64,000 bases of DNA, taken from contig NZ_JQMJ01000004.1 of the NCBI RefSeq assembly GCF_000744655.1, positions 1,488,001-1,552,000 on the forward strand, given 5' to 3'. The position numbers and the translations under genes were made by a program. Of the stretch, positions 23,232 through 45,236 are shown piece after piece. The notes beneath the pieces were generated by a model. It did not search any database and was not told the origin of the DNA. It worked only from the letters and a program-made list of their open reading frames with translations. Within the stretch, counting starts at the first letter, position 1. The number at the start of each line of letters is the position of its first letter. The DNA comes from Streptacidiphilus rugosus AM-16. GTDB lineage: Bacteria > Actinomycetota > Actinomycetes > Streptomycetales > Streptomycetaceae.

Positions 23232-25223
23232 TCAGGACAGCGCGAAGAGCAGGTCGTGGAGCGGGCGGCCGGTGCCGTGCCAGATGGAGAGGGAGTAGAC
23301 GCTGATCGGGTAGTGGACCCAGCGCGGCGGGGCCCAGACCGTGCCGCGCACGGTGGCGCCCCGGCCGTCGGCGTCCAGGCTGGAGGGGACGTCGCCGGCG
23401 TCGACCAGCAGGTCCCAGGCCCGCCGGGGCACGGCGAACTCCGCCTCGTGCAGCTCGCCGCGCATGCTGGCGCGGAGAATCGTCGTCGCCGCGAGGTCCA
23501 GGCTGAGGGCGCCGTCGACCAGCGCGCGGTCGATCTCGTGGCCGGCGGCGGTCAGCCGGGCGCAGAGCCGGTCGACGGCGTCGGTGAGCAGGTTCCTCGC
23601 GGCGCGTTCGGTGCCCGCGGCCCGGCACAGCAGGGCCTGGAAGTGCACCTCCTCCGGCACCACGACCCGGTCGCCGATCACGGTCCGCAGCAGCGCCATG
23701 TCCACGTCCCCCGGCTCCCGGTAGCCGGCGGCGACGTTGCGGGCCACCGCGCGCAGGAACGGGTCGGCGCAGTCCTCCAGCAGGAACGACCAGAGCTGGT
23801 CGCAGAGTTCGACCATGCGCACACCGGTGGTCATGTGCAGCACGCGGAGCGCGCAGCGGAGCAGGATCTTCTGGAACAGTGTCATGGAGACGCGGAACGC
23901 CATGCCGTCGACCCACTCCTCGGTCGTCATGGTGTCGTGCGCGACGACGACCTCGGCGACGAGTTCGGGGTTGGTGATGTCGGCCGGCATCCACCGGGTG
24001 GTCAGTTTGTGCTTGTCCTGGAAGGACTCGCGCGAGTACTCGGTGTTGTTGAGCAGCAGCAGCGGATAGATCACCGGCGAGCCGCCCGCCGTCAGCACCT
24101 CCTCGGCCCCGGCCAGATAGGACTCGTGGGTCTCCCCCGGCAGGCCCCAGATCAGGTCGGTGTAGGTGGGCACGTCCAGCGCGCGGAAGCGGGAGAGCAG
24201 CCGCCGGTAGTGGTCGGTGCGGATGTTGGCCCGGTTGGCGATCTTCAGCACGTCCGGGTCGAAGGACTGCGCGGACAGCGTGATCGCGCCGGTGAGTTCG
24301 GCGGCGTGGAGCATGCCGGCGATCTCCACGATGCGGTCGTTGCCGTTCTTCGCCCAGTTGGTGCTGATGATCAGCCGCTTGTCGTGGCGCCGGGTGAGCT
24401 CCACGATGTGCTCGGCGATCTGCCGGTCCCTGGCGATGATCCCGAAGTTCGCGTCCGCGATGAAGAGGGTGGCGTCGGTCGGCATCAGCCGTACCAGCCG
24501 GTCGAGTTCGGCGAAGATCCGGTCCAGGTCGAACTGGCGCACCTTGGAGTTGGTGGCGCCGCCCCAGTAGCAGAAGGCGCACTTGTAGGGGCAGCCGCGG
24601 TTGGTCTCGTAGACGATCATCGACGAGCCGGTGATCTCCGCGTCGGAGTAGACCGGGGAGAGGATCGGCGAGACGACCTGCTCGAGGTCGGTGATCCGGT
24701 CCGCGTCCGCGTTGGTGACGACGGCGCCCTCGGACCAGTAGCTGATGCCGGGGATCGCGGCGAGGTCGCCCTCGGCCAGGAAGCAACCGATCAGGTCGCG
24801 GAACCGCAGTTCGCCCTCGCCGTGGACCAGCACGTCCACCCAGGGAGCCTCGGCGAACAGCGGATCCTGCTGGTAGCTCACGTCGTTGCCGCCGAGGACG
24901 ACGCGGCAGTCGGGCCAGCGCAGCTTCACCCGGCGGGCCAGCTCCAGGGACTGGGCCCGGTTCCAGAAGAACACGGTAAGCGCGACGGCGAACGGCTCGT
25001 CGTCCCAGGAGTCGAGCAGCTCGTCCATGGCCTGCTCGCCGCCGCTCTGCTCGCGCACGCTGATGCGGAAGTCGCAGGCTTCGTCGAGCTCCGGGTCGGC
25101 GACCGCGGTGGCCTTGAGATAGCCGAGGGTGACGCTGTAGCGGACACCGTGCATCGCGGTGAACTCGACGAGCTGAACCGTTTTCTTCTTCACTGCGGCC
25201 ACGGCCGGCCAGGTGGAGGTCAT
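23232..25223 (-). CDS. B12-binding radical SAM protein, probable RiPP tailoring enzyme
   Basis: A 663-residue radical SAM protein. The [4Fe-4S] motif is CPYKCAFC (C-x3-C-x2-C) at residues ~215-222, after an N-terminal part with the cobalamin-domain pattern (CRVVLGGNDVSY ... WVDVLVHGEGELRF). The barrel continues with FIADANFGI and PTYTDLIWGLPGET. A ~200-residue C-terminal domain follows. ATG 25223 sits behind GGGAG. B12-type radical SAM enzymes often methylate unreactive carbons of RiPPs, including in thiopeptide pathways. Here the gene is divergent from the precursor operon across a shared 295-bp region, so a role in tailoring the peptide is likely but unproved. Confidence 0.82.
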   Translation of the reverse strand: MTSTWPAVAAVKKKTVQLVEFTAMHGVRYSVTLGYLKATAVADPELDEACDFRISVREQSGGEQAMDELLDSWDDEPFAVALTVFFWNRAQSLELARRVKLRWPDCRVVLGGNDVSYQQDPLFAEAPWVDVLVHGEGELRFRDLIGCFLAEGDLAAIPGISYWSEGAVVTNADADRITDLEQVVSPILSPVYSDAEITGSSMIVYETNRGCPYKCAFCYWGGATNSKVRQFDLDRIFAELDRLVRLMPTDATLFIADANFGIIARDRQIAEHIVELTRRHDKRLIISTNWAKNGNDRIVEIAGMLHAAELTGAITLSAQSFDPDVLKIANRANIRTDHYRRLLSRFRALDVPTYTDLIWGLPGETHESYLAGAEEVLTAGGSPVIYPLLLLNNTEYSRESFQDKHKLTTRWMPADITNPELVAEVVVAHDTMTTEEWVDGMAFRVSMTLFQKILLRCALRVLHMTTGVRMVELCDQLWSFLLEDCADPFLRAVARNVAAGYREPGDVDMALLRTVIGDRVVVPEEVHFQALLCRAAGTERAARNLLTDAVDRLCARLTAAGHEIDRALVDGALSLDLAATTILRASMRGELHEAEFAVPRRAWDLLVDAGDVPSSLDADGRGATVRGTVWAPPRWVHYPISVYSLSIWHGTGRPLHDLLFALS

Positions 25224-25374
25224 GGCTCCCAATCCGTGCAGTCGGCAACAGGCACACACGGTCGCAGCGCGGGCCGACGCAGTCAATAACGCTTCCTTCG
25301 AACCGTAAGTATCCCCGGTGATACCGACCGCCGAATTGAATACTTTGCCCCGGGAGCGGCCCGCCTGTCGGATA

Positions 25375-25403
25375 TTGACGACTTCGGTGGCCCCCTGTAG
25401 CGT
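25375..25403 (+). promoter_or_regulatory. Predicted vegetative promoter of the RiPP operon
   Basis: TTGACG (25375-25380), a 17-bp spacer and TAGCGT (25398-25403) fit the streptomycete HrdB-type consensus well. It lies 115 bp upstream of the luciferase-like gene and would drive that gene, the precursors and probably the downstream operon. Confidence 0.55.
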
Positions 25404-25482
25404 CGGCCAGGAAAGACCCCCCGGCTCCGCGCTCACAGAGGCCTCGGACCGTGTGGATGACCACCGCAGACGTCGATCTCGC

Positions 25483-25499
25483 GGATATCCCGGATATCC
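25483..25499. promoter_or_regulatory. Tandem palindromes GGATATCC-C-GGATATCC
   Basis: Two copies of the palindrome GGATATCC start 9 bp apart, just downstream of the predicted promoter and 20 bp before the luciferase-like start. They are AT-richer than their surroundings and well placed to act as an operator or 5'-UTR element. Confidence 0.4.
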
Positions 25500-25518
25500 G
25501 GTTCAAGGAGTGGTATCG

Positions 25519-26583
25519 GTGCGCTTCGGGCTTTCTCTTCTTCCTGACTGCACGCCGGAGACCAAATCTCCGCAGGACTATTTCAGCGACGCGCTGGAAT
25601 TGTCGGTGCAAGCGGAACTCGGTGGTCTTGATTCCGTCAAGATGACCGAGCACTATCTGCATTACTACGGCGGGTACTGCCCGAGCCCGCTGGGATTCCT
25701 CTCCGCCGTGGCCGCCAGGACGAGCTCGGTGCGGCTGATGACCGGCTGTGTGCTGCCGGTCTTCCACCATCCGATCCAACTGGCCGCCGAGGCCGCGCAG
25801 GTGGACGCGATCAGCGGCGGCCGGCTCGACGTCGGCTTCGCCCGGGCCTATCTGCCCGACGAGTTCGACGCGCTGGGCCTCGCGATGGAGGAGAGCACCG
25901 ACCGCTTCAGGGAGACCATCCGCGCGGTGCTGCGCATCTGGACCGAGGAGAAGGTCACCGAGGACACGCCGTTCTTCTCCTACCGCGACGTCACCGGACT
26001 GCCGCGGCCCACCCAGCAGCCGCATCCGCCGGTCTGGGGGGCGGCGGTCCGCACCCCGGAGAGCTTCTCCTGGCTGGGCACCGAGGGCATGGGGCTGCTG
26101 ATCACACCCCTGATCTCGCCGCACGAGTTCCGCGGCCACCTCACCCTCTACCGGGAGGCGTTCGAGGCCGCGCACGGCGGCACCGCACTGCGTCCCCGGG
26201 TCACGGCCAGCCTGCCGCTGGTGGTCGCCGACACCGACGCGCAGGCCGAGGAGATCGCCGAGACCTACCTGCGGCGCTACCTGGACGTGTGGGCGCTGGC
26301 GGTGAACGCCTGGGACCGCAGGGAGTCCTCGGCCTATCAGGGTTACTCCGGCTTCGGCTGGATGCTGCGCGGCCTCCAGCCGGCCAAGCTCTACCGCGAG
26401 GGCGGCGCGATCGTCGGCTCCCCGGCCACCGTCATCGACCGGATCCGCGCCTTCAACGACCACATCGGCGGCGTCGACCAGATCCTCTGGCAGATCGACT
26501 TCGGCGCGATGCCGCTCACCGAGGCTGGGCAGACCTTGGAGCTCTTCTGCAACAAGGTGCTGCCCGAAGTGAAATCACTGTGA
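25519..26583 (+). CDS. Luciferase-like (LLM) flavin-dependent oxidoreductase, RiPP-associated
   Basis: A 354-residue (beta/alpha)8 protein of the bacterial luciferase superfamily, probably using FMNH2 or F420H2. Typical features are MTEHYLHYYGGYCPSPLGFLSAVAARTSSVRLMTGCVLPVFHHPIQLAAEAAQVDAISGGRLDVGFAR split over residues ~35-110 and PVWGAAVRTPESFSWLG. GTG 25519 is chosen because AAGGAG ends 8 bp before it. It is the first gene of the precursor operon, 38 bp before precursor 1. It is probably an oxidative tailoring enzyme of the peptide product; the substrate is not predictable. Confidence 0.83.
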   Translation: MRFGLSLLPDCTPETKSPQDYFSDALELSVQAELGGLDSVKMTEHYLHYYGGYCPSPLGFLSAVAARTSSVRLMTGCVLPVFHHPIQLAAEAAQVDAISGGRLDVGFARAYLPDEFDALGLAMEESTDRFRETIRAVLRIWTEEKVTEDTPFFSYRDVTGLPRPTQQPHPPVWGAAVRTPESFSWLGTEGMGLLITPLISPHEFRGHLTLYREAFEAAHGGTALRPRVTASLPLVVADTDAQAEEIAETYLRRYLDVWALAVNAWDRRESSAYQGYSGFGWMLRGLQPAKLYREGGAIVGSPATVIDRIRAFNDHIGGVDQILWQIDFGAMPLTEAGQTLELFCNKVLPEVKSL

Positions 26584-26621
26584 CGACTCGTCACCCGGAA
26601 CGCGAGAGGGGGTGTGAAGAC

Positions 26622-26789
26622 ATGGAGGGATTCGAGGACCTGGTGCTGGACGACGGCGCCTTCGAGCTCGTCGACCTGGGCGAGGTGGTTCCCGCGTCGG
26701 TGACGGCCGGCTACGGCCTGACCGAGCTGTCGGCTTCCGGCGGCCAGAGCAGCTGTTGCTGCTGCTGCCCGTGCTGCTCCTGCACCTGA
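26622..26789 (+). CDS. RiPP precursor peptide 1 (thiopeptide/azole type)
   Basis: A 55-residue peptide. The leader (residues 1-~41) is acidic, MEGFEDLVLDDGAFELVDLG, then TAGYGLTELSAS, which resembles thiopeptide leaders (F-E-L-x-D-x-G ... L-T-A-G-H-G-M-T-E-V-G-A-S). The core is GGQSSCCCCCPCCSCT: eight Cys, three Ser, one Pro and one Thr in the last 14 positions. Ser44 and Ser53 are nine positions apart, the spacing of Ser1 and Ser10 in 26-membered thiopeptides; Ser43 and Ser53 would give the 29-membered class. It lies 38 bp after the luciferase-like gene, behind GAGAGGGGGTG. It is almost identical to precursor 2. Confidence 0.93.
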   Translation: MEGFEDLVLDDGAFELVDLGEVVPASVTAGYGLTELSASGGQSSCCCCCPCCSCT

Positions 26790-26848
26790 TTCAGGGTGCC
26801 GGTGTTCCCACCGCACGTCACAGCGAGAAGGGGAGGAGGTGTAGAGAC

Positions 26849-27016
26849 ATGGAGGGATTCGAGGACCTGGTGCTGGACGACGGCGCCTTCGAGCTCGTCG
26901 ACCTGGGCGAGGTGGTTCCCGCGTCGGTGACGGCCGGTTACGGCCTCACGGAGCTGTCCGCTTCCGGCGGCGCCAGCAGCTGCTGCTGCTGCTGCCCGTG
27001 CTGCTCCTGCACCTGA
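26849..27016 (+). CDS. RiPP precursor peptide 2 (thiopeptide/azole type)
   Basis: A 55-residue peptide differing from precursor 1 at one residue only: Gln42 is Ala here, directly before the Ser-Ser-Cys5 core. Its ribosome site is stronger (GGGGAGGAGG). The first ~110 coding bases are identical to precursor 1, and the few later changes are silent except for codon 42. This means a recent duplication or gene conversion, with the leader and the cyclisable core under strict conservation. Both would feed the same enzymes and give products that differ, if at all, only near the leader cleavage site. Confidence 0.93.
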   Translation: MEGFEDLVLDDGAFELVDLGEVVPASVTAGYGLTELSASGGASSCCCCCPCCSCT

Positions 27017-27070
27017 TCAGGGTGCTGAACTTTCCGGCGCCTGTGCTCTAGCCGGTGCGTGCGATCGAAC

Positions 27071-27095
27071 GAGGACCGGGTGGCTCTTGGTCCTC
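27071..27095 (+). terminator. Stem-loop between precursors and maturation operon
   Basis: GAGGACC (27071-27077) pairs perfectly with GGTCCTC (27089-27095) around an 11-nt loop in the 120-bp gap after precursor 2. There is no U-run. It probably acts as a leaky terminator or RNA-stabilising element that keeps precursor mRNA above enzyme mRNA. Confidence 0.4.
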
Positions 27096-27136
27096 CTCCT
27101 GACCGGTCATCAGTCATGCCTGAAGAAGCGGTGGTC

Positions 27137-29104
27137 ATGGAAGTAAATGTCGAGCGGATCCGGCCGCGCCTGCGTGGGGACGTCTACGTCATGCGCGTGC
27201 CCGAGGGCGCGTACATCCGCAGCAATCTGGGCGGGTCGATGCTCAAGGGCGCCTCGACCTACGAGTGGATCCAGCGGATCGCGCCGATGCTCGACGGCAC
27301 CAGGACGCTCGGCGAACTGTGCGCCGGCGTGCCGGAGCAGAACCGCGCCGCGCTGGCCAAGCTGACCCTGCTGCTGCTCGGCAAGGGCTACGTCAAGAAC
27401 GTGCTGGAGGACCGCCCGCACACGCTGACCGCCGAACTGGCCACGACCTACGCGGCCAACATCGCCTTCGTCGAGTACTTCGTCGACTCGCCGGAGCTGC
27501 GCTTCGAGCACTACCGCGAGGCCGCCGTGGTGCTGGCCGGCGCGGGACCGCTGCTCCAGGCGCTGACCAACGCGCAGCTGCGCGCCGGCGTGCGCACCGC
27601 ACCTGTCGCGCCGTTCGCCGAGTCGCCCTTCGACCGCGAGCGCGTGGCCGAGCACCTGACCGCGGCCCGTGCCAGGGACCCGCAGCAGGAGCTCACCTGG
27701 GTCGAGACCGCCGACGACCGGCTGGTGGCCGGCGGCGACATGCTGCTGCACGTCGCCGACCGGCCGATGATCGGGCGCGCCCTGCGGCTGCCCGGGGTCG
27801 CCCGCGCCGCGGGCGCCGCCTTCGCCCAGGCCGTGGCGGTCGGCGACGAGGCGTGGATCGGCCCGGTGATCGCCAAGGACGGCGACGCCACGGCCTGGGA
27901 GTCGGCCTGGCGCCGGCTGCGCGCGCTGGCGCCCGAGCTCGCGGGCGCGGACCTGCGCGACCACCCCGAGCAGGCGCCGAGCGAGTTCCTGCGCGGCCCG
28001 ACGGTCGCCCTGGTCGCCAACCAGCTCTGCTTCGCCGCCTTCCGGCACCTGACCGGCATCGACCAGGGTCAGGCGGCCGACCGCCTGGTCAGGTTCGACC
28101 TGGAGACCCTGGAGACGGCGACCCACGCCTTCCTGCCGCACCCGCTGGCGCTGCCCGCGCTCCCCGACGACCCGGCCCGACTGGCCCGGCTCGCCGCCGC
28201 GCCGCCCGTCGACGACGAGGAGCTCGGCCGCCGCGCCGTGGACTGCGTCGACGTCAGGACCGGCGTGTTCGCGGAGATCACCGAGCGCGACTACGAGCAA
28301 CTGCCGCTGTTCGTCAGCGAGGTCGTGGTCTCCGACCCGGTCGGGCTGGCCGGCGGACCGTTCCCCGTGCACGGCTGCGGCGAGAGCGTCGTCGAGTCGC
28401 GTCAGCGCGCGGTGCGGCGAGCGTTCGAACGCTATGCGGCCGTGACGGCCGACCCCCGCAGGGGCGACCGACTGCACGGCGCGGACGTGCTGACCGGTGA
28501 GCCGGTCGAGGTCGAGGCCGCGGCGGTCCTCCCGGCGCGGAGCCCCGCGTCCGGCGGCGACTGGGCCGAGGCCGTGAGCGCCGCGGTCGTCGCCGCGGCC
28601 GGCGCGGGCGTCGGCCCGGCCCTCGCCGCCGCGACCGAGCCGCTCCCCCGGCTGGACCTGGACGGCGCCGAGCTGACCGGCCGCGGCGAGCGCTACCGCA
28701 AACTGCTGGAGATCGTCGACGAGCGGTTCGAGGTCTACGACCTGTCCGGGTTGCTCGGCCTGCCCACCTTCGCGTTCACCACCGCGCACGGCACCGTCGC
28801 CTGCGCGAGCGGACTCGAACCCGGGACGGCGCTGGAACGGGGTCTCGAGCAGACGCTGCTCGCCTACCAGTCCCGCAGCGCCGACCAGCCCGGCTACGCG
28901 CCGGAGCCGGTGCCCCAGCTGCCCGCGGAGCTGCGCGGCGAGCCGCGTGGGGCGGGCGCGTGGCCGACCCCGGTGTCCCTGGACGAGGTCGTGGCGCGGC
29001 TGACCCGCGACGGCGGCCGCGTGGTCGCGGTGCCGCTGGACCACGATCCGGCCGTCGCCGCGCTGTGTCCGTTCGTGGCGCAGGCCGCGGTCGTCCATGG
29101 CTGA
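27137..29104 (+). CDS. Ocin-ThiF-like partner protein with N-terminal RRE (TOMM cyclodehydratase partner)
   Basis: A 655-residue protein. Residues ~1-95 look like a PqqD/RRE leader-binding domain (GDVYVMRVPEGAYIRSNLGGSMLKG, STYEWIQRIAPMLDGTRTLGELC, LLLLGKGYVKN). The middle resembles the E1/ThiF-like scaffold of ocin-ThiF proteins (AAVVLAGAGPLLQAL). The C-terminal third has a YcaO-accessory look (GCGESVVESRQRAVRRAFERYAA). In thiopeptide and related pathways such a protein binds the leader and presents it to YcaO. It is the only such protein in the cluster although there are two YcaO genes. ATG 27137 is preferred; ATG 27116 is also in frame. It overlaps the first YcaO gene by 8 bp. Confidence 0.82.
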   Translation: MEVNVERIRPRLRGDVYVMRVPEGAYIRSNLGGSMLKGASTYEWIQRIAPMLDGTRTLGELCAGVPEQNRAALAKLTLLLLGKGYVKNVLEDRPHTLTAELATTYAANIAFVEYFVDSPELRFEHYREAAVVLAGAGPLLQALTNAQLRAGVRTAPVAPFAESPFDRERVAEHLTAARARDPQQELTWVETADDRLVAGGDMLLHVADRPMIGRALRLPGVARAAGAAFAQAVAVGDEAWIGPVIAKDGDATAWESAWRRLRALAPELAGADLRDHPEQAPSEFLRGPTVALVANQLCFAAFRHLTGIDQGQAADRLVRFDLETLETATHAFLPHPLALPALPDDPARLARLAAAPPVDDEELGRRAVDCVDVRTGVFAEITERDYEQLPLFVSEVVVSDPVGLAGGPFPVHGCGESVVESRQRAVRRAFERYAAVTADPRRGDRLHGADVLTGEPVEVEAAAVLPARSPASGGDWAEAVSAAVVAAAGAGVGPALAAATEPLPRLDLDGAELTGRGERYRKLLEIVDERFEVYDLSGLLGLPTFAFTTAHGTVACASGLEPGTALERGLEQTLLAYQSRSADQPGYAPEPVPQLPAELRGEPRGAGAWPTPVSLDEVVARLTRDGGRVVAVPLDHDPAVAALCPFVAQAAVVHG

Positions 29105-30755
29105 CCAGCCCCAGGTGCTGCTCGAACCCCATCAGGTGATCGTCGGACCGTGGCCGCCCGGCTGCCCGGACTGCCTGCGCACCAGGCGTACCGCGGCGGC
29201 GGGCGACGACCCCGCCGCCGGGCCGGTCGCCGAACCGTCGGCGGCGCCACGCCACGGACTGCCGAGCTTCCTCGCGGACACGGTGGCCCAACTGACCGCG
29301 ACCGAGCCGCAGGAGCAGCGCTACCGGATCGTCGACGCCGCCACGCTCGCGCTGTCGCGGCACTCCTACCTCACCGACCCGCACTGCCGGACCTGTTCGA
29401 CCGTCCTCCCCGACACCGAGCAGGGCGCACGGATCAGCCGGCAGGCCAGGACCAAGCTGTCCGACGGGTCGAGCCGCATCCGGGCGCTGGACCGGGCCGC
29501 TCTCGAAGCGGTCTACGTGGACCGGCGAAGCGGCCTGATCCCCTCCGTCACCTCCTACACCCATCACGCGTTCCCCTTCACCGAGGCCGTGCTGGCGGTG
29601 CCCGGCGTCGCCACCGAGGCGTCCGGTTACGGCCGCACCCGCGACTTCGCGTCCGCGCGGGCCGTCGCGGTGGCCGAGTCGCTGGAGCGCCTCGCGGCCT
29701 ACACGCCGACGAGGCGCACCGGTGTGCGCGCGTCGTGGTCGGAGCTCGCCGCCGACGCGGTCGACCCCCGCACCCTCGGCCTGTACCCGGCCGAGCGGTA
29801 CCGCGCGCCCGGCTTCCCCTACCGGGAGTTCACCGAGGACGCGATGGCGAACTGGGTGTGGGGCTGGTCGTTCGGCCGGGGGCGTCCGGTGCTGGTCCCG
29901 GAGAGCTTCGTCTACTACCGGCTTCCGAGGCACGGCGGGGAGGCCTCCTTCGCCTGCGAGATCTCCAGCGGCTGCGCGCTGGGCGGCTGTTACGAGGAGG
30001 CGGTGCTGCACGGCGTCCTCGAGGTCGCCGAACGCGACGCGTTCCTCCGGACCTGGTACGGCGGCGCCCCGCTGCCCGTGCTCTATCCGGCCTCCGTGCC
30101 CGATCGCAGGATCCCGCTGGTGGCCGAGAGGATCGAGCGGCAGGGCTACCGGGTGCGGATCTTCGACAGCACCCAGGAGCACGGCATCCCCTCCTTCTGG
30201 ACGTTCGCCGAGGACGTCACCGGCACCGGGCGGCCCAGGGCCGTCTCGACCGGCGGCAGCGGGCTGCAGCCGGCCGAGGCGATCCTGGCCGCGCTGCACG
30301 AGCTCAGCCAGACCGTCGAGTACGTGACCCTGTTGGCGCTCGACCCCGGCTGGCGCGACCGGGCCCGGCATCTGGCCGGGCATCCGGACGAGGTGGTCTC
30401 GATGGCGGACCACCTGCTGTGCGCGGCCGATCCCGACAGCTTCGACCGGTACGGGTTCCTGCTGGACGACCCGCCCGCCTCGACCTGGGAACAGGGGCTC
30501 GCGCGGTGGCACTGGCCGCGCAACGCCGAGATCGGCGCGGACCTGGACGAGGCGGTACGCCGCTTCGCGGCCGCGGGCATGGACGTCGTCGCCGTCGACA
30601 CCACCTCAACGGAACAGGCTTCGGGAGGCTTCACATGCGTCAAGGTGATCGCACCGGGCTCGGTGCCGATGACCTTCGGCCACACGGCCCGGCGGGTGAC
30701 CGGTCTGCCCCGGCTGGAGCGGGTGCGCAATCCGCATCCGCACCCGTTCCCGTGA
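29097..30755 (+). CDS. YcaO-A: azoline-forming cyclodehydratase
   Basis: A 552-residue YcaO enzyme that uses ATP to cyclise Cys (or Ser/Thr) into azolines. The C-terminus ends NPHPHPFP, matching the P-x-P-x-P tail diagnostic of azoline-forming YcaOs. ATP-site segments include ARAVAVAESLERLAAY and GCALGGCYEEAVLHGVLEVAERDAF. The N-terminal ~110 residues carry a ThiF-derived zinc site: C23-x2-C26 (CPDC) and C97-x2-C100 (CRTC). It overlaps the upstream partner gene and the downstream SagB gene (GTGA). It is about 30% similar by eye to YcaO-B and shares all motifs with it. Confidence 0.92.
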   Translation: MADQPQVLLEPHQVIVGPWPPGCPDCLRTRRTAAAGDDPAAGPVAEPSAAPRHGLPSFLADTVAQLTATEPQEQRYRIVDAATLALSRHSYLTDPHCRTCSTVLPDTEQGARISRQARTKLSDGSSRIRALDRAALEAVYVDRRSGLIPSVTSYTHHAFPFTEAVLAVPGVATEASGYGRTRDFASARAVAVAESLERLAAYTPTRRTGVRASWSELAADAVDPRTLGLYPAERYRAPGFPYREFTEDAMANWVWGWSFGRGRPVLVPESFVYYRLPRHGGEASFACEISSGCALGGCYEEAVLHGVLEVAERDAFLRTWYGGAPLPVLYPASVPDRRIPLVAERIERQGYRVRIFDSTQEHGIPSFWTFAEDVTGTGRPRAVSTGGSGLQPAEAILAALHELSQTVEYVTLLALDPGWRDRARHLAGHPDEVVSMADHLLCAADPDSFDRYGFLLDDPPASTWEQGLARWHWPRNAEIGADLDEAVRRFAAAGMDVVAVDTTSTEQASGGFTCVKVIAPGSVPMTFGHTARRVTGLPRLERVRNPHPHPFP

Positions 30756-37410: not shown

Positions 37411-37423
37411 GGGGGAGCCGCGC

Positions 37424-39277
37424 GTGAGCGAGACGGTACTCGGCGACGGCCTGCTGGCCGACGCCATCGCACTGCGCCCGCCGCCGCTGCTGGTGGTGGC
37501 GCACGACGGGTGGCGCACCGACGACTGGGCCGACGCCCACGGCCGGGGCGAGCCGTGGCTGCCGGTGTGGACCGAGCTCGACCGGGTGGTGGTCGGCCCG
37601 GTCGTCCGGCCGGGCGAGCCGGGCTGCGCCTGGTGCCTGTCGACCTGGCGGGCCGCCGCACCGCGCCGTGACCGCTGGACCGCCGACCTGCGCAAGGACG
37701 AGCGGATCGCCGGGCGGCCCTCGCTCTGGCTCTCCTCCTTCGCCGCCGACGCCGTGGGCGAACTGCTGCACACCGGCGCGGCCGCCGACTGCTGCTGGTA
37801 CCTGGGGCTGCGCGACCTCTCGCTGGCCCGGCACACCTTTCTGCCCGACCCGCTGTGCCGGGTCTGCGGCTCGCTGCCGCGCGACAGCGCCGCGCTCGCC
37901 GCGTTCGCGCCGCGCTCGCGGCCCAAGCCGAGGCCGGGGGCCACCCGGGTCGGCGCGCTGTCCGAGGTCGAGCTGACGCGTCGTTACGTCGACGCGGAGA
38001 CCGGCGTGGTCGCCCCGCCCAACGGCATGCGGGACGCCAGGTTCCCGCTGGCCGAGGCGGTCCTGGCGGAGTACGGCTACCGGGGCGAGGCCGGCTGGGG
38101 ACGCGGCTCCGACTACGCCTCCTGCCGGACCACCTCGATCGCGGAGGCGCTGGAACGCCTCGGCGGCCAGTGGCCCTGGGGGCGGCGGACCGCCGTGCGC
38201 GGCAGCTACGCCGAACTCGGGGACGACGCCGTCGACCCGCGGTCCTTCGGCCTGTTCCCGCCCGAGCGCCACCCCGACCCCGACGGCGTCCACCAGCCCT
38301 TCACCGAGGACGCGGTGGTCTCCTGGGTCTGGGGGTGGTCGTTCGGCCGGTCCCGCCCGGTGCTGGTGCCGGAGAGCCACGCCTACTACCGGACCCGTTG
38401 GCAGCCGGGGGCGAAGGCGGACAAGCCCTTCACCTTCGAGATCTCCAACGGCTGCGCGCTCGGCGGCTGCCTGGAGGAGGCGATCCTGCACGGCATCCTG
38501 GAGATCGTCGAAAGGGACGCGTTCCTGCTGACCTGGTACGCCCGGATGCCGGTGCCCGAGCTCGACCTGACCCGCGCGCCGGATCCGCGGATCGGGCTGG
38601 TCGTCGAACGCCTGGAGCGCACCGGCTACCGGGTGCGGGTCTTCGACACGACGCTGACCGAGGAGATCCCCGCCTTCTGGGTGCTGGCCCAGGACCTCGC
38701 CGGCGACGCGGCGCGGCCCCGGGTCGTCTGCACCAGCGGATCTGGCCTTGCCCCGGCGGCGGCCGTGCTCAGCGCGCTGGGCGAGCTCGCGCCGATCGTC
38801 GAGCAGGAGATCGCCCGCTACCCGGGCGAGGCCGAGCGGGCCCGGCGGATGGCGGCCGACCCCGAACTGGTGCGGGTGATGACCGACCACTCGCTGTGCA
38901 GCGCCACCCCGGAGGCCTTCGACCGCTTCGCCTTCCTGCTCTCCGGCCCCGACCGCACCGTCGGCTGGGACCGCGCGGGCCGCAGCCCCTGGCCGGTCCA
39001 CACCGACCTGCGCGACGACCTGACCGAGGCGGTCGACCGGATGCTCGCCGGCGGCATGGACGTGGTGGTCGTCGACCAGACCTCGGCACTGCACCGGGCC
39101 GCAGGGCTGCACTGCGTCAAGGTGATCGCGCCAGGGGCGCTGCCGATGACCTTCGGTCACCGTAACCGGCGGACCACCGGCCTGCCCCGGCTGCGGGAGG
39201 TGCCGTACCGGCTCGGCCACGCGCCGCGCCCGCTCACCGAGGCCGACCTCAACCCGCACCCCCACCCGTTCCCATGA
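37424..39277 (+). CDS. YcaO-B: azoline-forming cyclodehydratase
   Basis: A 617-residue YcaO, longer than YcaO-A at the N-terminus. The tail is NPHPHPFP, again P-x-P-x-P. The zinc site is C68-x2-C71 (CAWC) and C145-x2-C148 (CRVC). ATP-site segments are SCRTTSIAEALERLGGQ and GCALGGCLEEAILHGILEIVERDAF. GTG 37424 lies 5 bp after a GAGGGGGAG ribosome site. It overlaps LanB-B by 4 bp. It shares the C-terminal VVVDQTS...LHCVKVIAPGALPMTFGH block with YcaO-A, showing common descent. Confidence 0.92.
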   Translation: MSETVLGDGLLADAIALRPPPLLVVAHDGWRTDDWADAHGRGEPWLPVWTELDRVVVGPVVRPGEPGCAWCLSTWRAAAPRRDRWTADLRKDERIAGRPSLWLSSFAADAVGELLHTGAAADCCWYLGLRDLSLARHTFLPDPLCRVCGSLPRDSAALAAFAPRSRPKPRPGATRVGALSEVELTRRYVDAETGVVAPPNGMRDARFPLAEAVLAEYGYRGEAGWGRGSDYASCRTTSIAEALERLGGQWPWGRRTAVRGSYAELGDDAVDPRSFGLFPPERHPDPDGVHQPFTEDAVVSWVWGWSFGRSRPVLVPESHAYYRTRWQPGAKADKPFTFEISNGCALGGCLEEAILHGILEIVERDAFLLTWYARMPVPELDLTRAPDPRIGLVVERLERTGYRVRVFDTTLTEEIPAFWVLAQDLAGDAARPRVVCTSGSGLAPAAAVLSALGELAPIVEQEIARYPGEAERARRMAADPELVRVMTDHSLCSATPEAFDRFAFLLSGPDRTVGWDRAGRSPWPVHTDLRDDLTEAVDRMLAGGMDVVVVDQTSALHRAAGLHCVKVIAPGALPMTFGHRNRRTTGLPRLREVPYRLGHAPRPLTEADLNPHPHPFP

Positions 39278-41715
39278 GCGGCCGCCACCCCACCGTCGCC
39301 GCCACCTTCGGAGTCAGGGTCGCGGGCCTGCCGGCCACCGTGATCGAGCGACTGGCCGACAAGCGGCTGCGCGACGCCCTGCTGGCCGGGGCCCGCGGCG
39401 ACGCCGAACTGACGGCCCGCGCCGCCGACCTGTCCGACCGCTGCCACACGGTGATCGGGGTGCTCGGCGACCCGGCCGCCAAGCCGAAGCTGGTGGCGCT
39501 GCGCCGCGCGGTGCACCAACTGCGGGACCCGGCCAGGCTGCTGGCCGATCCGCTGGTCGCCGCCGCCCTCGGCGACGAACTGGCGGCCGAGCTGGCCGCG
39601 TTCGGGAGCGGGGTGGGCCGGCGCCGGGCCGAGCGGGCGGAGCTGCCCGCGCTGCTGGCCGAGGCGGAACAGGCCGCGGCCGCGGCACTGCGGGAGATCG
39701 CCGCCCTCCCCCGCTTCGACCAGGGCCTCGCCCATGCCAGCCCGACCCTCCGGGAGGCGGTGCGGCGCAGGCCCGGCCGTTCGGAGCTGACCCGGCTCGC
39801 CGTCTACGTCACCCGGGCCGCCGTCAAGACCAGCCCGTTCAGCACCTTCACCGCCAGCGGCCTGGGCCGCTTCGTCCCCGAGGGCCCGGCGCTGCGCTGG
39901 ACCGCGACCGCACCGGCCCGCTCGGTCGTCGAGCTCGACCTCGCCGCCCTCGCGCCGCAGGCCGAGCAGCTGACCGGGGCCGCCGGGATCCGGATCCGGG
40001 TCAACCCGAGCGCGCGGGTGGAGTCCGACGCCGTCCGGTTCCTCGGCCCGCCGCCGCGGGAGGAGCTGCTCAGCCTGCCGCTGACGCCGGCGCTGCGGCA
40101 CTGCCTGCGGGCCGCGGCCGCCTCGCCGACCCTCGCCGGGCTCACCGCGAGCCTGCCCGCGCCGCCGGACCGGGCCGAAGGCTACCTGCGGTCACTGCTG
40201 ACCGCGGGCGTGCTGCTGGCCACGACCGGCCTCGACGAGCACGGTCCCGACCCGCTCGGACAGCTGGCGCGCCACGCGCCCGCGCTGGCGCCGGTCGGGG
40301 AGGCGCTGCGCGCGTACGCGGACGCCGACGGGGCCGGGCGGATCGCGCTCGGTCCCGCGCTGGCGGACCGCCTCGCACCGTTCGGCGTCACCGGCCGGCT
40401 GCGGGACGTGGTGACCGAGCAGTCGGTCGTCCCCGGCGTGGTCGTCGAGGCGGGTCTTCCGTTCTGGCAGGACGCCCTGGACGATCTCGCCCTCGCCTGC
40501 CGGACACTGGCCGTCTTCGACCACACGCTGCCGTTCAGGCTGGCGGTCGCCGCCTTCGTCGCCGAGCGCTTCGGAGCCGGGGCGCGGGTGCCGTTCGACC
40601 GCTTCTACGCCGAACTGGTCCGCGACGGCGGCGAGGCGACGCGGCTGCACCCGGCCGCCGTCGCCTTCGCCCCGACCGGGCTGACCGAGGTCCTGGCCGC
40701 GAGCCCGGTCCCCGCGGTGCGCCGACTGGTCGGCCTGATCGCGGACGTCCGCGGCGCGCTGTCCGACCGGCGGCGACTCGCCCGGGTCCTGGACGAGCTC
40801 CCTCCCTGGATCCGCCCGGCGGGCTCGGTCGCGGTCTACGCCCAGGGGGACGGCGACCGGCTGGTCGTCAACGCGGTCAACTCCGGTTTCGGCCGCGGCC
40901 GGTCCCAGCTGCGCCGGTTGCTGCGCGCCGCGGGCGAGGAGCCGCTCCCGGTCGAGGCGGTGCGTCCGGCCGGCGCCGGGTACGCCGAGTTCGCCCAGAC
41001 GCTCGCGACCTCGCTGAACCAGCGCGAGCTCGTCCTGCCCGACCGCCTGGACTACCCGCCGCCCGCCCGGCTGCGGGTCGGCGTCGGCGCGGACGGGCTG
41101 CCGGTCCTGCTCGACGAGGAGGCGGTCCTCCGCCCGGTCCACGGCGGGCTCTCCTTCGAGCGTCAACTCCCGCCCGTGATGGCGCTGCTGGTGGAGGCCT
41201 TCGGCGAGAACCCGCTGCTGCTCCGGCCGGACCAGCCGCTGCGGCACGACGCGGCCGCGGGCCGGGACGACGGCCCCGCCAGGGTCCTGCACGCGCCGCG
41301 CCTCGCCGTCGGGCGGGTGGTGCTCCGGCGGGCGGCCTGGGTGGCCCGGCCGGGGGCAGTGCCGCGCCGCCCGGCCGGCGGGTCCGACGCGGACTTCCTG
41401 CTGCGGCTCACCGCCTGGCTCGCCGAACACGGCGTCCCGCCCCGGTTCTTCGCCTCGGTCCTGCCCGCGGGAATCGGCCCGGCCGCCTCGCTCGCGCGCG
41501 ACCGCGCCAGGAAACCGCTGCTCGTGGACATCGGTTCGCCGCACCTGGTACTGGCCTTCGAAAGGCTGGCGGCCGATCCTGCCGGGGCGGCGGTGCTCAC
41601 CGAGGTCCTGCCGGAGCCCGAGACCGCGCTCACCGACCAGGAGGGCCTGCCCCGCGTGACCGAATACCTGATCGAGCTGGACTGCCTGACGGACTGTCGA
41701 GGAGACGGACGATGA
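39274..41715 (+). CDS. LanB-B: second split dehydratase, glutamylation domain
   Basis: An 813-residue Lant_dehydr_N protein with VTRAAVKTSPFSTFTASGLGRF at ~180-200, RIRVNPSARV at ~245, VVNAVNSGFGRGRSQLRRLL at ~530 and a C-terminal ARKPLLVDIGSPHLVLAFERL. It is paralogous to LanB-A: the SGFGRGR and C-terminal blocks match the A copy's TCGFGRGRNRVRQIL and KPNYVDFAS blocks. Cytoplasmic. It starts at ATG 39274, overlapping YcaO-B, and overlaps SpaB_C-B by 4 bp (ATGA). Confidence 0.9.
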   Translation: MSGRHPTVAATFGVRVAGLPATVIERLADKRLRDALLAGARGDAELTARAADLSDRCHTVIGVLGDPAAKPKLVALRRAVHQLRDPARLLADPLVAAALGDELAAELAAFGSGVGRRRAERAELPALLAEAEQAAAAALREIAALPRFDQGLAHASPTLREAVRRRPGRSELTRLAVYVTRAAVKTSPFSTFTASGLGRFVPEGPALRWTATAPARSVVELDLAALAPQAEQLTGAAGIRIRVNPSARVESDAVRFLGPPPREELLSLPLTPALRHCLRAAAASPTLAGLTASLPAPPDRAEGYLRSLLTAGVLLATTGLDEHGPDPLGQLARHAPALAPVGEALRAYADADGAGRIALGPALADRLAPFGVTGRLRDVVTEQSVVPGVVVEAGLPFWQDALDDLALACRTLAVFDHTLPFRLAVAAFVAERFGAGARVPFDRFYAELVRDGGEATRLHPAAVAFAPTGLTEVLAASPVPAVRRLVGLIADVRGALSDRRRLARVLDELPPWIRPAGSVAVYAQGDGDRLVVNAVNSGFGRGRSQLRRLLRAAGEEPLPVEAVRPAGAGYAEFAQTLATSLNQRELVLPDRLDYPPPARLRVGVGADGLPVLLDEEAVLRPVHGGLSFERQLPPVMALLVEAFGENPLLLRPDQPLRHDAAAGRDDGPARVLHAPRLAVGRVVLRRAAWVARPGAVPRRPAGGSDADFLLRLTAWLAEHGVPPRFFASVLPAGIGPAASLARDRARKPLLVDIGSPHLVLAFERLAADPAGAAVLTEVLPEPETALTDQEGLPRVTEYLIELDCLTDCRGDGR

Positions 41716-42821
41716 CGACCGAGCCCACCTGGCGCAGCGTGAACGTCCACCACCACGACAGCGACCGGACGGACCTGCTGCTCGACGCGGTGCGCCCGTT
41801 CCTGCACGCGGTCTCCCCCGCGGTCCCGCGCGTCTGGTTCCAGCCGCACTGGCGGCGCGGGCCGCACGTGCGGATCCCGGTCCAGGCGAGCGCGGAGACC
41901 TTCGACGCGCTGGTGGCCCCGGCGGCCGCGGACATCCTCGGCGGATACCTGCGGGCGCACCCCTCCACGACGGTCCTCGACGAGCGGGCCGCACTGGAGG
42001 AGCACCGGCGGCTTGCCGTGATCGAGCGCGAGCAGGGCCCGTTGACCCCGTGGGCGGCGGACAACTCGCTCGAGTTCGAGCCCTTCGACCGGCGCCTGGC
42101 CGTCCTCGGCGGCACGGCGGCGGCCGACCTGCTGGCCGACTACTACGTGGACACCAACGACACCGTCTTCGCGATCCTGGACTGGATCCGCGGCGGCGGT
42201 TCCCGGATGGCGCTCGCGGTGGACCTGTTCCTCGCGGCGGCGCACCGCTTCCTGCCGCCGGTGACCTACGGCTACCTCTCCTACCGGGGGCACGCGGACG
42301 CCTTCCTGGCCAAGAACCCGGACGCGCTGCGCGAACGCTTCGACCGGGTCTACGAGGCCAACGCGGAGCGGTTCAGGCAGCGGGTGGTCACCGTGACCGG
42401 GGCCGCCGACCACCACGAGGTGCTGCGCTTCGGCGGTCTGCTGGACATCCTGCTGCGCTACCGCAACCGGGCCGCGAAGCTGATCGCCGCCGGCGGGCTG
42501 GCACTGAACTCGGACGCGAACGGCGAGCCCGAGGCCTGGGGCTCGAGCTGGAGCGCCTGGTCCGAGCGGAGCGCCTTCCACCGGACGCTCGGCGGCCACC
42601 GGGGGGCGGCCGACCAGCTCGGCGGCTGGGACGCCTTCCAGCAGTACCGGATCGTCCTCAACTGGCTGTACCTGAACATGTACCGGATCGGCCTCGGTGA
42701 GCTGGAACGCAACCTGGTCTGCCACGTGGTCTCCCGCGCCGTCGAGGACGTGAACGGAGTGACCGCGCTGGACCGGATCCAGGACCTGATCGGTTTCGTC
42801 GACAGCGGCGGTCGTCTCTAG
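41712..42821 (+). CDS. SpaB_C-domain protein B (glutamate elimination or [4+2] cyclase)
   Basis: A 369-residue member of the thiopeptide-type bacteriocin biosynthesis family: WRSVNVHHHDSDRTDLLLDAVRPFL, VWFQPHWRRGPHVRIPVQ, and a helical C-terminal half (FQQYRIVLNWLYLNMYRIGLGELERNLVCHVVSRAVEDV). It is clearly diverged from protein A, sharing little beyond the H-V-R-(L/I) strand. Two diverged SpaB_C proteins in one cluster is what a thiopeptide needs (one lyase, one pyridine synthase), so one of the pair is a candidate macrocycle-forming enzyme. Which one is undetermined. Confidence 0.83.
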   Translation: MTTEPTWRSVNVHHHDSDRTDLLLDAVRPFLHAVSPAVPRVWFQPHWRRGPHVRIPVQASAETFDALVAPAAADILGGYLRAHPSTTVLDERAALEEHRRLAVIEREQGPLTPWAADNSLEFEPFDRRLAVLGGTAAADLLADYYVDTNDTVFAILDWIRGGGSRMALAVDLFLAAAHRFLPPVTYGYLSYRGHADAFLAKNPDALRERFDRVYEANAERFRQRVVTVTGAADHHEVLRFGGLLDILLRYRNRAAKLIAAGGLALNSDANGEPEAWGSSWSAWSERSAFHRTLGGHRGAADQLGGWDAFQQYRIVLNWLYLNMYRIGLGELERNLVCHVVSRAVEDVNGVTALDRIQDLIGFVDSGGRL

Positions 42822-42866
42822 TCCCGCACCGCCGCCCAGCCGGACCGCAGGAGAGGGGAGCACACG

Positions 42867-43832
42867 ATGCACGACGCCGTCACCGTCACCGACCTGGTCA
42901 AGCACTACCACCCGCAGGCGCCGCCCGCCGTCGACGGTCTGAGCTTCACCGTCGCCAGGGGCGAGGTCTTCGGCCTGCTCGGCCCGAACGGGGCCGGGAA
43001 GTCCACCACCGTGGGCGTGCTGACCACACGGATCCTGCCGACCTCGGGCCGCTGCCTGGTCCTCGGCACGGACGTGGTGGCCCGCCCGGCCGAGGCGAAA
43101 CGCCTGCTCGCCGTCGTCCCGCAGCGGCAGAACCTGGACCGGTCGCTGGACGTGCGGCAGAACCTGCTCTTCCACGCCCGCTACCACGGTGTGGGCCGCG
43201 AGGAGCGGACACGGCGCGCGGCGGAGCTGCTGGACCTGATGGGGCTGGCCGACGCCGCGGGCCGGCGGGTCGAGCGGCTCTCCGGCGGCCAGGCCCAACG
43301 GGTGGTGATCGCACGGGCGTTGATGCACGCGCCGGAGGTCCTGTTCCTGGACGAGCCGTCGACCGGTCTCGACCCGCAGTCACGGCTCTTCCTGCACGAG
43401 CGGATCAGGGAGCTGCGGGACCGAGGGGTCACCGTGGTGCTCACCACGCACGACATGGACGAGGCCGAGAGCCTGTCCGACCGGATCGGCATCGTCGACC
43501 ACGGCCGGCTGCTGGCCCTGGACACGCCGCGCGCGCTCACCGGGGCGCTGCCCGGCGGCGCGACGATCCTCGCGCAGGCACACGTCGCATCCGACGCGGC
43601 CACGGCCGTGGTGGCCGCGCTGGCGGAGCTGCCCGGCGTCGAGGCCGTCGAGCACGACGCGGCCGCGGGCCGCTTCCGGGTGCGCACCGAGAAGGACCCC
43701 TCCGCGCTCCTGCCCGACGTGCTGCGGACCGTCGTGGACCGGGGGGCGGGCGCGGAGCTCGTCGACCTGTCGGTGGCCAGGCCCAGCCTGCGGGACGTCT
43801 TCATCTCGCTGACCGGAAGGGAGCTGCGGTGA
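42867..43832 (+). CDS. ABC transporter ATP-binding protein, probable RiPP exporter
   Basis: A 321-residue DrrA-like ATPase. Walker A is LLGPNGAGKSTTVG (~37-50), the signature is RLSGGQAQRVVIARAL (~135), Walker B is VLFLDEPSTGLD (~157), and the switch His is in LTTHDMDEAE. The C-terminal extension is typical of drug exporters. ATG 42867 lies behind AGGAGAGGGGAG, 45 bp after the last maturation gene, so it is in the same operon. It probably exports the product and gives self-protection. Confidence 0.92.
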   Translation: MHDAVTVTDLVKHYHPQAPPAVDGLSFTVARGEVFGLLGPNGAGKSTTVGVLTTRILPTSGRCLVLGTDVVARPAEAKRLLAVVPQRQNLDRSLDVRQNLLFHARYHGVGREERTRRAAELLDLMGLADAAGRRVERLSGGQAQRVVIARALMHAPEVLFLDEPSTGLDPQSRLFLHERIRELRDRGVTVVLTTHDMDEAESLSDRIGIVDHGRLLALDTPRALTGALPGGATILAQAHVASDAATAVVAALAELPGVEAVEHDAAAGRFRVRTEKDPSALLPDVLRTVVDRGAGAELVDLSVARPSLRDVFISLTGRELR

Positions 43833-44650
43833 CCGTGACCACCCTGGCCGAAACCGCCCCACGACCGCGCCACGACCTCGGCTCCGTCCTGCGGACCTTC
43901 CTCGCGGTGCTGTGGCGCGACGTGTTCACCACGACGCGGCGGCCCACCGCGTTCCTGGTGCAGGTCGTGGTCCAACCGCTGCTGCTCTTCTTCGTCTTCG
44001 GCAAGGTCCTGGGCGAAGCCGGCTACACCAGGGGCGACTTCGGCGCCACGCTACTGCCCGGGGTGATGGCACTCAACGCCCTGCTGGTCTCGCTGCAGAA
44101 CACCGCGATGCCGCTGATCATGGACTTCTCCTGGTCCGGCGAGATCGAGGACCGGCTGCTCGCACCGCTGCCGGGCCCGCTGGTGGCCGTGGCCAAGCTG
44201 GTCTTCGGAACGCTGTGCGGTCTCTTCGCCGGGTTGGTCATGGCCCCCATCGGCTTTCTCGTGCTGGGCACCTCGGGCTGGGCGCCCGACGCGTGGCCCG
44301 CGGTGCTGCTCGTCCTCGCGCTCGGCTCGGCCACCGGTGCGGGCATCGGACTGGTCCTGGGCACGGTCATCGCGCCCGACCGGATCAGCGTCACCTTCGC
44401 GCTGGTGCTCGCTCCGGTGACGTTCACCGGGTCCGTCCAGTACCCGTGGTCCTCGCTGGGCCGCGTCGGCTGGTTCCAGGTCGTCTCCGCGGTCAACCCG
44501 CTGACATATGTGAGCGAGGGGCTGCGGGCCGCGACGCTGCCGGGCCAGGCGGCGATCGCCCTGTGGATCGACGTCCTGGTGCTGCTCCTGGCGCTGCTGC
44601 TGGCCGCGCTCGTCGGCGTCAGGGGGTTCATGTCACGGGCGCTCGGCTGA
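43829..44650 (+). CDS. ABC-2 permease, probable RiPP exporter
   Basis: A 273-residue DrrB-like permease with six membrane helices, among them AFLVQVVVQPLLLFFVFGKVLG, TLLPGVMALNALLVSL, LVFGTLCGLFAGLVMAPIGFLVLG and WIDVLVLLLALLLAALVGV. It overlaps the ATPase gene (GTGA). The pair would pump the mature peptide out of the cell. Confidence 0.9.
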   Translation: MTVTTLAETAPRPRHDLGSVLRTFLAVLWRDVFTTTRRPTAFLVQVVVQPLLLFFVFGKVLGEAGYTRGDFGATLLPGVMALNALLVSLQNTAMPLIMDFSWSGEIEDRLLAPLPGPLVAVAKLVFGTLCGLFAGLVMAPIGFLVLGTSGWAPDAWPAVLLVLALGSATGAGIGLVLGTVIAPDRISVTFALVLAPVTFTGSVQYPWSSLGRVGWFQVVSAVNPLTYVSEGLRAATLPGQAAIALWIDVLVLLLALLLAALVGVRGFMSRALG

Positions 44651-44783
44651 TCGGCCATCGATCAACCATGAAAGGAGATTTACCAAGATTGACACAATAT
44701 GTCGCTATGTTTCACGCCAATGTGTCATGCTCATGTTTCGGGTGTACGCGCCACCGTGCACCCCGAACGTGAGGGGGGACACT
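44651..44783. promoter_or_regulatory. AT-rich leader of the HxlR gene with inverted repeat TGACACA-N24-TGTGTCA
   Basis: This 133-bp gap is far more AT-rich than its surroundings. It contains TTGACA at 44689-44694 and an inverted repeat with arms 44690-44696 and 44721-44727, probably the operator of the HxlR regulator. A 34-codon frame (ATG 44668 to stop 44772) ending in a short Cys-containing tail crosses it, but has no ribosome site. Confidence 0.5.
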
Positions 44784-45236
44784 ATGGCCGCTTTCGAGGC
44801 CGGCGCCACCGTCCACGGCGCCCAGAAGTGCAACGAGGACCCGAGCCGCCCGATCCTGGACCAGATCGCCGACAAGTGGTCGATGCCCGTCCTGGGCTTT
44901 CTGGACGAACCCAAGCGCTTCAACGAAATCAGACGTCACCTGGACGGGGTTACCCAGCGGGTGCTGACCCAGACCCTGCGCCGTCTGGAACGCAACGGAA
45001 TGATCGTGCGCCGGGTGCTGCCCACCTCCCCCGTCGGCGTCGAGTACTCCCTCACCCGGCTCGGGGAGTCACTGCGGGAGCCGTTCGGCCGCTTACAGGC
45101 CTGGGCGGTGGACAACACGGACGCGATCAGGGAACACCAGCGCGCGTACGACCAGCGGATGCTCGACTACGGAACCTCCCCGCTCCCGGTCCCCGCCTCG
45201 GCCTCGGCCTCGGCTCCGGTGGCCGGATCCCACTGA
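44784..45236 (+). CDS. HxlR-family transcriptional regulator
   Basis: A 150-residue winged-helix regulator of the HxlR/MarR type. ATG 44784 is chosen because GAGGGGGGA lies 5 bp upstream. Family landmarks are the early Cys (GAQKC), PILDQIADKWSMPVLGFL, RFNEIRRHLDGVTQRVLTQTLRRLERNGMIVRRVLPTSPVGVEYSLTRLG. The last ~20 residues are an Ala/Ser/Pro-rich tail. HxlR proteins often sense electrophiles or redox through the N-terminal Cys. It ends the RiPP region and probably controls its own promoter and perhaps the exporter or the flavoprotein next door. Confidence 0.88.
   Translation: MAAFEAGATVHGAQKCNEDPSRPILDQIADKWSMPVLGFLDEPKRFNEIRRHLDGVTQRVLTQTLRRLERNGMIVRRVLPTSPVGVEYSLTRLGESLREPFGRLQAWAVDNTDAIREHQRAYDQRMLDYGTSPLPVPASASASAPVAGSH

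Follow-up and report, generated by a model that had tools for sequence, protein, structure and literature searches.

Among the described systems closest to the locus analyzed here, the GE2270 pathway (pbt) of Planobispora rosea includes pbtG1 and pbtB1 in its gene list (PMC3943966; this and the other papers cited are drawn upon as far as the excerpts consulted extend). Deletion of pbtG1 in Nonomuraea led to linear precursors, and a Streptomyces coelicolor strain lacking pbtR, pbtG1, pbtB1 and pbtO showed no production, with cyclized congeners restored by adding back pbtG1 (PMC12309360); this restoration by pbtG1 alone argues that PbtB1 is dispensable for cyclization. GE2270A was not made by the matching Nonomuraea strain (PMC12309360), and the conversion of Ser to oxazoline in GE2270 has been assigned to a YcaO-like enzyme (PMC9822014). 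The sulfomycin (sul) pathway is described as having two YcaOs and two dehydrogenases, in which the complexes SulBC, SulEFG and SulDEFG form the thiazole, methyloxazole and oxazole rings (work of Du et al. 2020, as summarized in PMC10634744), and the micrococcin scaffold TclI as binding its YcaO and its dehydrogenase in a mutually exclusive manner (PMC10634744). In berninamycin/geninthiocin, the two dehydrogenase components GenE1 and GenE2 are described as split, not duplicated (PMC6306032). Here we analyze a gene cluster at positions 23232-45236 of a 64,000-nucleotide stretch of the Streptacidiphilus rugosus AM-16 genome (contig NZ_JQMJ01000004.1, positions 1,488,001 to 1,552,000; this whole stretch is referred to as the window), which combines two YcaO, two SagB and two LanB genes (a 2+2+2 arrangement) with a single RRE protein and a single pair of SpaB_C proteins. 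We propose that its maturation line is widened, not doubled. As the layout recurs in relatives and, in part, in known clusters, we regard the cluster as an unusual variant of a familiar system.

The interval comprises, in this order, genes for a radical-SAM protein, a luciferase-like oxidoreductase, two precursors, the RRE protein, YcaO_A, SagB_A, LanB_A, SpaB_C_A, SagB_B, YcaO_B, LanB_B, SpaB_C_B, an ABC ATPase, an ABC-2 permease and an HxlR regulator, all on the plus strand except the radical-SAM gene (minus strand). The window frames are free of internal stops and the family matches span most of each length; together with the same order in all 16 genomes examined (see below), this confirms the gene order and families given in the initial annotation. 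The tight packing that it reported, with nearly all genes overlapping by 1-8 bp, holds as well: the maturation genes overlap by 8, 4 (given a SagB_A start at GTG 30752), 1, 8, 4 and 4 bp, the exceptions being SpaB_C_A/SagB_B, which lie 2 bp apart, and SagB_B/YcaO_B, which lie 13 bp apart.

By its family-model matches the cluster is of the thiopeptide class, bearing out the call of a thiopeptide/azole cluster of ribosomally synthesized and post-translationally modified peptides. Both 55-amino-acid precursors (26622..26789, core SGGQSSCCCCCPCCSCT, AGGGGG 5' of the ATG; 26849..27016, core SGGASSCCCCCPCCSCT, AGGAGG 5' of the ATG) exceed the cut-off (29 bits) of NF033399, the thiomuracin/GE37468 precursor family, at 50 and 50.4 bits, respectively; against PF19409, precursor 1 scores 19.5 bits, under the cut-off of 23.5. 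SpaB_C_B (41712..42821), a predicted [4+2] pyridine synthase of the TbtD/PbtD type, reaches 434.8 bits against NF045556 (cut-off 325), whereas SpaB_C_A (34946..35995; PF14028, 123 bits; TIGR03891, 79 bits), a TbtC-like candidate glutamate eliminase, reaches only 100 bits against the same model. Judged from these matches, the two SpaB_C proteins are an ordinary non-redundant thiopeptide pair of eliminase and pyridine synthase, both of which are needed. The hallmarks found over cut-off thus comprise two precursors, PF02624 twice, TIGR03605 twice, PF04738 and PF14028 (a split LanB), and NF045556. The putative leader-binding scaffold, an RRE/ocin-ThiF-like protein (27116..29104), is present as a sole copy; it matches TIGR03693 over residues 30-436 (E=1.2e-42, 146 bits, under the cut-off of 561.9) and has no Pfam match. 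Of the two "complete, non-identical" maturation sets initially proposed, the two non-identical YcaO, SagB and LanB proteins therefore stand, but the SpaB_C proteins are non-redundant and there is one RRE protein for both.

The same arrangement recurs in related genomes. A contig scan with an alignment of nine pyridine synthases confirmed 126 candidates, the best 80 of which were kept (79 loci, labeled with L numbers). Among these best 80, ten loci (L054-L063) carry a pyridine synthase with 74-81% identity to that of the window. Short contigs of metagenome-assembled genomes, showing LanB_B, SpaB_C_B and the exporter only, account for two of the ten, and the other eight, extended upstream, show the luciferase-like gene, one or more precursors, the RRE gene and the full 2+2+2 maturation order of the window. 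Among 394 genomes sampled across the window's family, 12, one of them the window's own, carry a YcaO_A orthologue (at least 75% identity), in each case (12/12) with a second YcaO at most 10 kb away; within the genus, two of 14 genomes have such an orthologue. No YcaO at the level of YcaO_B (48-51%) was found without YcaO_A among the 394 family genomes. Seven of these 12 genomes were new relative to the pyridine-synthase scan, and all seven contain every maturation gene. Overall, the eight maturation genes stand in the same 2+2+2 order in 16 of 16 genomes (the window, the eight and the seven), a recurrence indicating that the layout is not due to chance, although these genomes, recruited via the cluster's own genes, form a biased sample that is uninformative on how often genes are lost. 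In one of them, L186, frames of several genes are split, which looks like sequencing error. The 2+2+2 arrangement was not found in the literature searched (openly licensed papers only). As a side observation, both precursor frames of L134 have the core and the leader end and lack the usual leader start, possibly through an assembly fault.

Phylogenies of the three enzyme pairs, which the initial annotation had proposed, gave a different answer for each: the YcaOs are lineage-specific sisters, the SagBs look like an old pair, and the LanBs come out as sisters in one of two trees. YcaO_A (29097..30755; PF02624, 257 bits; TIGR03604, 283 bits; C-terminal PHPHPFP) and YcaO_B (37424..39277; PF02624, 281 bits; TIGR03604, 331.5 bits) share 48-51% identity and form sister clades (support 100/99 when 41 of the 101 rows were analyzed in a careful tree, and 99 in a quick tree of the full set), YcaO_A being the longer-branch paralogue (0.77 vs. 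0.32 for YcaO_B). The trees thus place the YcaO duplication within this lineage. A candidate identification of YcaO_A as an orthologue of PbtG1 was rejected, since a joint clade with the second YcaO of L163, which stands in the PbtG1 position (the core of this locus, SCNCVCGFCCSCSPSA, is that of GE2270), has an approximately unbiased test probability (p-AU) of 0.0001; the YcaO duplication is therefore independent of the GE2270-type one. In a column check over 65 canonical rows (18 of the 101 rows, unlike or short, were excluded), the conserved Glu and Arg positions, all four paired Cys and the terminal PHPF are retained in both YcaOs. Each has fixed substitutions of its own, from a near-invariant SNG to SSG and from Asp to His in YcaO_A (each 9/9) and from Arg to Trp in YcaO_B (9/9). 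Another two YcaO genes, some 26 kb from each other (L001, 3456346-3457365, and L002, 3483230-3484240), are present in the window's genome; the tree places them in a separate group, outside the YcaOs of thiopeptide clusters.

SagB_A (30752..32329, starting at GTG 30752 or ATG 30833) and SagB_B (35998..37410) both exceed the TIGR03605 cut-off of 78.4 bits (119.5 and 120.7 bits, respectively) and belong to different groups, SagB_A to a type-1 clade of 36 rows (support 99) and SagB_B, of type 2, to the remaining rows (support of its group 87). A further 16 loci (e.g., in Thermogemmatispora, Rhizocola and Thermocatellispora) contain one SagB of each kind. This grouping and co-occurrence make the SagB pair look old, so that what this lineage gained would be the second YcaO and perhaps also the LanB duplicate. 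A single block duplication of the whole set was rejected in view of the different groups of the SagBs and the different functional types of the SpaB_C proteins. Where McbC has Lys201 (position counted in a printed alignment), SagB_A has Ile in 16/16 genomes (9/9 rows and 7/7 further genomes) and SagB_B has Lys in 16/16, keeping its Lys-Tyr motif; in the other 27 type-1 rows, the residue is Lys or Arg in 19 and Leu in eight.

LanB_A (32329..34953; PF04738, 128 bits; 6ec7, E=1.4e-88), a TbtB-like candidate Ser/Thr glutamyl transferase, and LanB_B (39274..41715; PF04738, 62.5 bits; 6ec7, E=1.6e-71, residues 9-802) both match TbtB (6ec7), the nearest solved relative of both, over nearly the full length. 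They are sisters in a quick tree of 97 rows (support 91, with a long-branch warning), while a 44-row tree does not settle their branching, and a clade of LanB_B with the second LanB of L163, and with it an origin shared with PbtB1, is not rejected (p-AU 0.264). In a check against 77 LanB rows, almost all of the near-invariant positions are retained in both proteins; LanB_A has Gly for Asp in 9/9. One of the two LanBs would be specialized or structural.

Both copies are open and under purifying selection. In comparisons with four of 15 relatives, the ratio of nonsynonymous to synonymous substitution rates (dN/dS) was 0.15-0.47 for every maturation and tailoring gene. Among maturation genes, LanB_B had the highest dN in 4/4 comparisons and the highest dN/dS in 3/4 (0.36-0.47 over all four), SagB_A (0.38) being highest in the fourth. 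Pseudogenization of one set, a possibility raised at the outset, was not seen and is ruled out by the stop-free frames together with dN/dS values well under 1. Values of 0.86-0.90 for the ABC gene in 3/4 comparisons were discounted as comparisons of non-orthologues, the exporter being absent at this place in those genomes.

The two precursors have identical leaders and differ in one residue (Q or A before SSCCCCC), and relatives carry one to three precursor copies with unchanged enzyme sets. In cores of the thiomuracin and GE2270 types, the first residue is the Ser that immediately follows the end of the leader, for example LTAGHGMTEVGA, and by this leader-end rule the core is SGG[AQ]SSCCCCCPCCSCT; since our core-listing script demanded a Ser after the leader end, the listed cores are aligned by construction and provide no independent proof of the start. 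With this start, joining of Ser1 and Ser15 would give a 41-membered ring. To our knowledge, thiopeptide rings are 26- to 35-membered, a range that 41 would exceed. With Ser5 as the first residue, the spacing in SSCCCCCPCCSCT equals that of the thiomuracin core, and joining of Ser5 and Ser15 would give 29 members. Core copies vary at position 2 (G/K/A/S) and position 4 (A/Q/S/T/G) and hardly vary at positions 5-17, which mildly favors the start at Ser5. The product is predicted to be unusually thiazole-rich, and the core string was absent from the openly licensed papers searched.

Side observations concern the cores of other loci and the enzymes beside them. Eight loci of a neighboring thiopeptide group (L094, L095, L096, L102, L107, L113, L116 and L123) have a core S[FY]CCAPPPNCCNCSCS with Ser only at positions 1, 14 and 16, in which joining of Ser1 and Ser14 would give a 38-membered ring; these loci have two SagB and two RRE matches and, in most of them, one YcaO (the frames of L096 are broken up). 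In L143/L100, L144/L082, L181/L148 and L169, three to five different precursors with five- or six-Cys runs are accompanied by an additional SagB and by a short, divergent YcaO. L039 and L073 (Nocardiopsaceae YIM 96095), thiopeptide loci with the core SDCGCWCCSCC, have a single set of enzymes apart from a second LanB on their upstream side. The idea that a second YcaO is the answer to long Cys runs was weakened, as, in the stretches read, other loci with runs of 4-6 Cys have one canonical YcaO, any second one being of the divergent short kind.

Considering all of this, the reading that we favor, and to which we give an even chance of being correct, is a single scaffold serving a widened line, in which two YcaOs divide the residues, a mixed SagB dehydrogenase oxidizes the products and a second LanB assists dehydration of the Cys-rich core. 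It draws on the precursor and pyridine-synthase matches over cut-off, the conserved YcaO and LanB columns, the purifying selection, the co-occurrence of the genes, the Ile of SagB_A and the Lys of SagB_B at the McbC Lys201 position and the sulfomycin, GE2270 and micrococcin precedents. The single RRE/ocin-ThiF protein would present both precursors, and the two YcaOs would probably divide the target residues between them, YcaO_B acting as the general Cys cyclodehydratase and YcaO_A closing another subset, for which the crowded Cys7-Cys11 run or Ser5/Ser6/Thr17 are candidates. SagB_A and SagB_B would constitute one mixed dehydrogenase with SagB_B as the active subunit. Dehydroalanines would be produced by LanB_A with SpaB_C_A, LanB_B may be a second glutamyl transferase (or a partner) for a harder position, SpaB_C_B would join two dehydroalanines into the pyridine and free the leader, and the radical-SAM and luciferase-like enzymes may tailor the product.

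Several observations weigh against parts of this reading. LanB_B has lost a near-invariant Arg (8 Gln and 1 His of 9) and may not glutamylate. Elsewhere, Cys runs seem to be handled by a lone YcaO: in the stretch read, six loci with cores ending in CCSCCCC show a single YcaO and a single SagB. The root fork of the SagB tree is weak, long-branch warnings apply to this tree, and the support for the SagB_B group is only 87; the importance of the Lys-Tyr motif is an assumption. Finally, a Cys occupies core position 15 in two genomes (copy 2 of L136 and the sole complete copy found in L186); such cores do not suit a role of Ser15 as the diene residue, and neither view of the ring accounts for them. 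As an observation in its own right, Cys in place of Ser15 in L136 copy 2 and in L186 should block the usual pyridine formation there.

Among the alternatives, the one that survives best, though we judge it rather unlikely, extends the mixed-complex idea to all pairs: YcaO_A would dimerize with YcaO_B and LanB_A with LanB_B, one partner of each dimer having a chiefly structural role, which would leave one functional line. The missing motif Lys of SagB_A, the lost Arg and highest dN of LanB_B, the SNG-to-SSG and Asp-to-His changes of YcaO_A (9/9) and the constant co-occurrence of the paralogue genes in the genomes seen would all fit, but YcaO_A retains the conserved Glu and the PHPF end, and LanB_B retains all but one near-invariant Lys/Arg column in most rows. 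Redundant duplicates, doing the same job for more flux with no division of labor, would likewise leave both copies open and under purifying selection; nevertheless, with YcaOs only 48-51% identical, fixed substitutions particular to each paralogue and a single-copy state in 0/16 genomes (a sample biased by having been found via these genes), we regard this explanation as improbable. Similarly improbable in our estimation is that the additional YcaO, SagB and LanB make up a dedicated second line, turning Cys7-Cys11 into five consecutive thiazoles (at most eight in total) and preparing Ser1 and Ser15 for the 41-membered ring, possibly with a new binding surface or target. The presence of two precursors and two groups of enzyme genes might suggest that each set matures its own precursor into a separate product, which is highly improbable given identical leaders, one RRE protein, relatives with one to three precursor copies yet unchanged sets and non-redundant SpaB_C proteins. 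Of the three meanings offered in the initial annotation, different target residues (for the YcaOs) and a hetero-complex (for the SagBs) thus fit best, while two products are unlikely in view of the shared leader and one RRE protein.

The flanking part of the interval contains two genes left unnamed in that annotation. One (23232..25436) encodes a B12-binding radical-SAM protein resembling KedN5-like C-methyltransferases (PF04055, 51 bits, cut-off 29.5), which stays below cut-off in two models (B12-binding, 28.6 bits, cut-off 32.1; NF033712, 313 bits, cut-off 700); it lies beside the cluster in 14/16 genomes and downstream in the other two (not upstream in L137 and L139, but downstream as seen in L060 and L062). 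The other (25519..26583) encodes a luciferase-like flavin/F420 oxidoreductase (PF00296, 197 bits), 86-93% identical to the copies in relatives. Both would be tailoring enzymes. Downstream of SpaB_C_B are a DrrA-like ABC ATPase (42867..43832; PF00005, 113 bits; TIGR01188, 286 bits, under the cut-off of 312) with a presumed role in export or immunity, detected in some relatives only, an ABC-2 type permease (43829..44650; PF01061, 64.5 bits) and an HxlR-type regulator (44727..45236; PF01638, 79.5 bits).

The YcaO duplication, separate from the GE2270-type one, and the other loci with a divergent short second YcaO point to repeated gain, which makes this cluster a natural test of why thiopeptide pathways repeatedly acquire a second YcaO. 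Since it combines a single leader and a single scaffold with a core dominated by Cys, it is suited to showing whether duplicated cyclodehydratases and LanBs divide residues or form complexes. The initial annotation did not recognize a second whole YcaO/SagB/LanB complement from characterized clusters; for a second YcaO and LanB, precedents, as far as the sources consulted describe them, are GE2270 (PbtG1, PbtB1) and sulfomycin (two YcaOs, two dehydrogenases). GE2270 is alike in its two YcaOs (PbtG, PbtG1), two LanBs (PbtB, PbtB1) and precursor leader type, and differs in having one SagB and in the extras being placed upstream of the precursor, a layout read in L163, where the order is YcaO, LanB, precursor, LanB, two SpaB_C, SagB, RRE and, truncated where the stretch read ends, another YcaO. 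Sulfomycin, compared by description, likewise has two YcaOs and two dehydrogenases acting on one thiopeptide core; in contrast, it has several E1/RRE proteins and one YcaO that, judging from the domain list, would be discrete, and the excerpts consulted do not mention a second LanB. Berninamycin/geninthiocin shares, again by description, two dehydrogenase components and differs in its Ser-rich core. Thiomuracin (tbt) has the same precursor family and enzyme types, whereas the thiomuracin-type locus L145/L146 (core SCNCFCYICCSCSSA, from which we take it to be the Thermobispora bispora locus) has one YcaO, one SagB and one LanB, plus two P450s, in the approximately 20 kb read on each side. Overall, the thiopeptide class, a second YcaO with a second LanB (GE2270) and a second YcaO with a second dehydrogenase (sulfomycin) were already known, and what looks new in this cluster, judged by the openly licensed papers searched, is their 2+2+2 combination.

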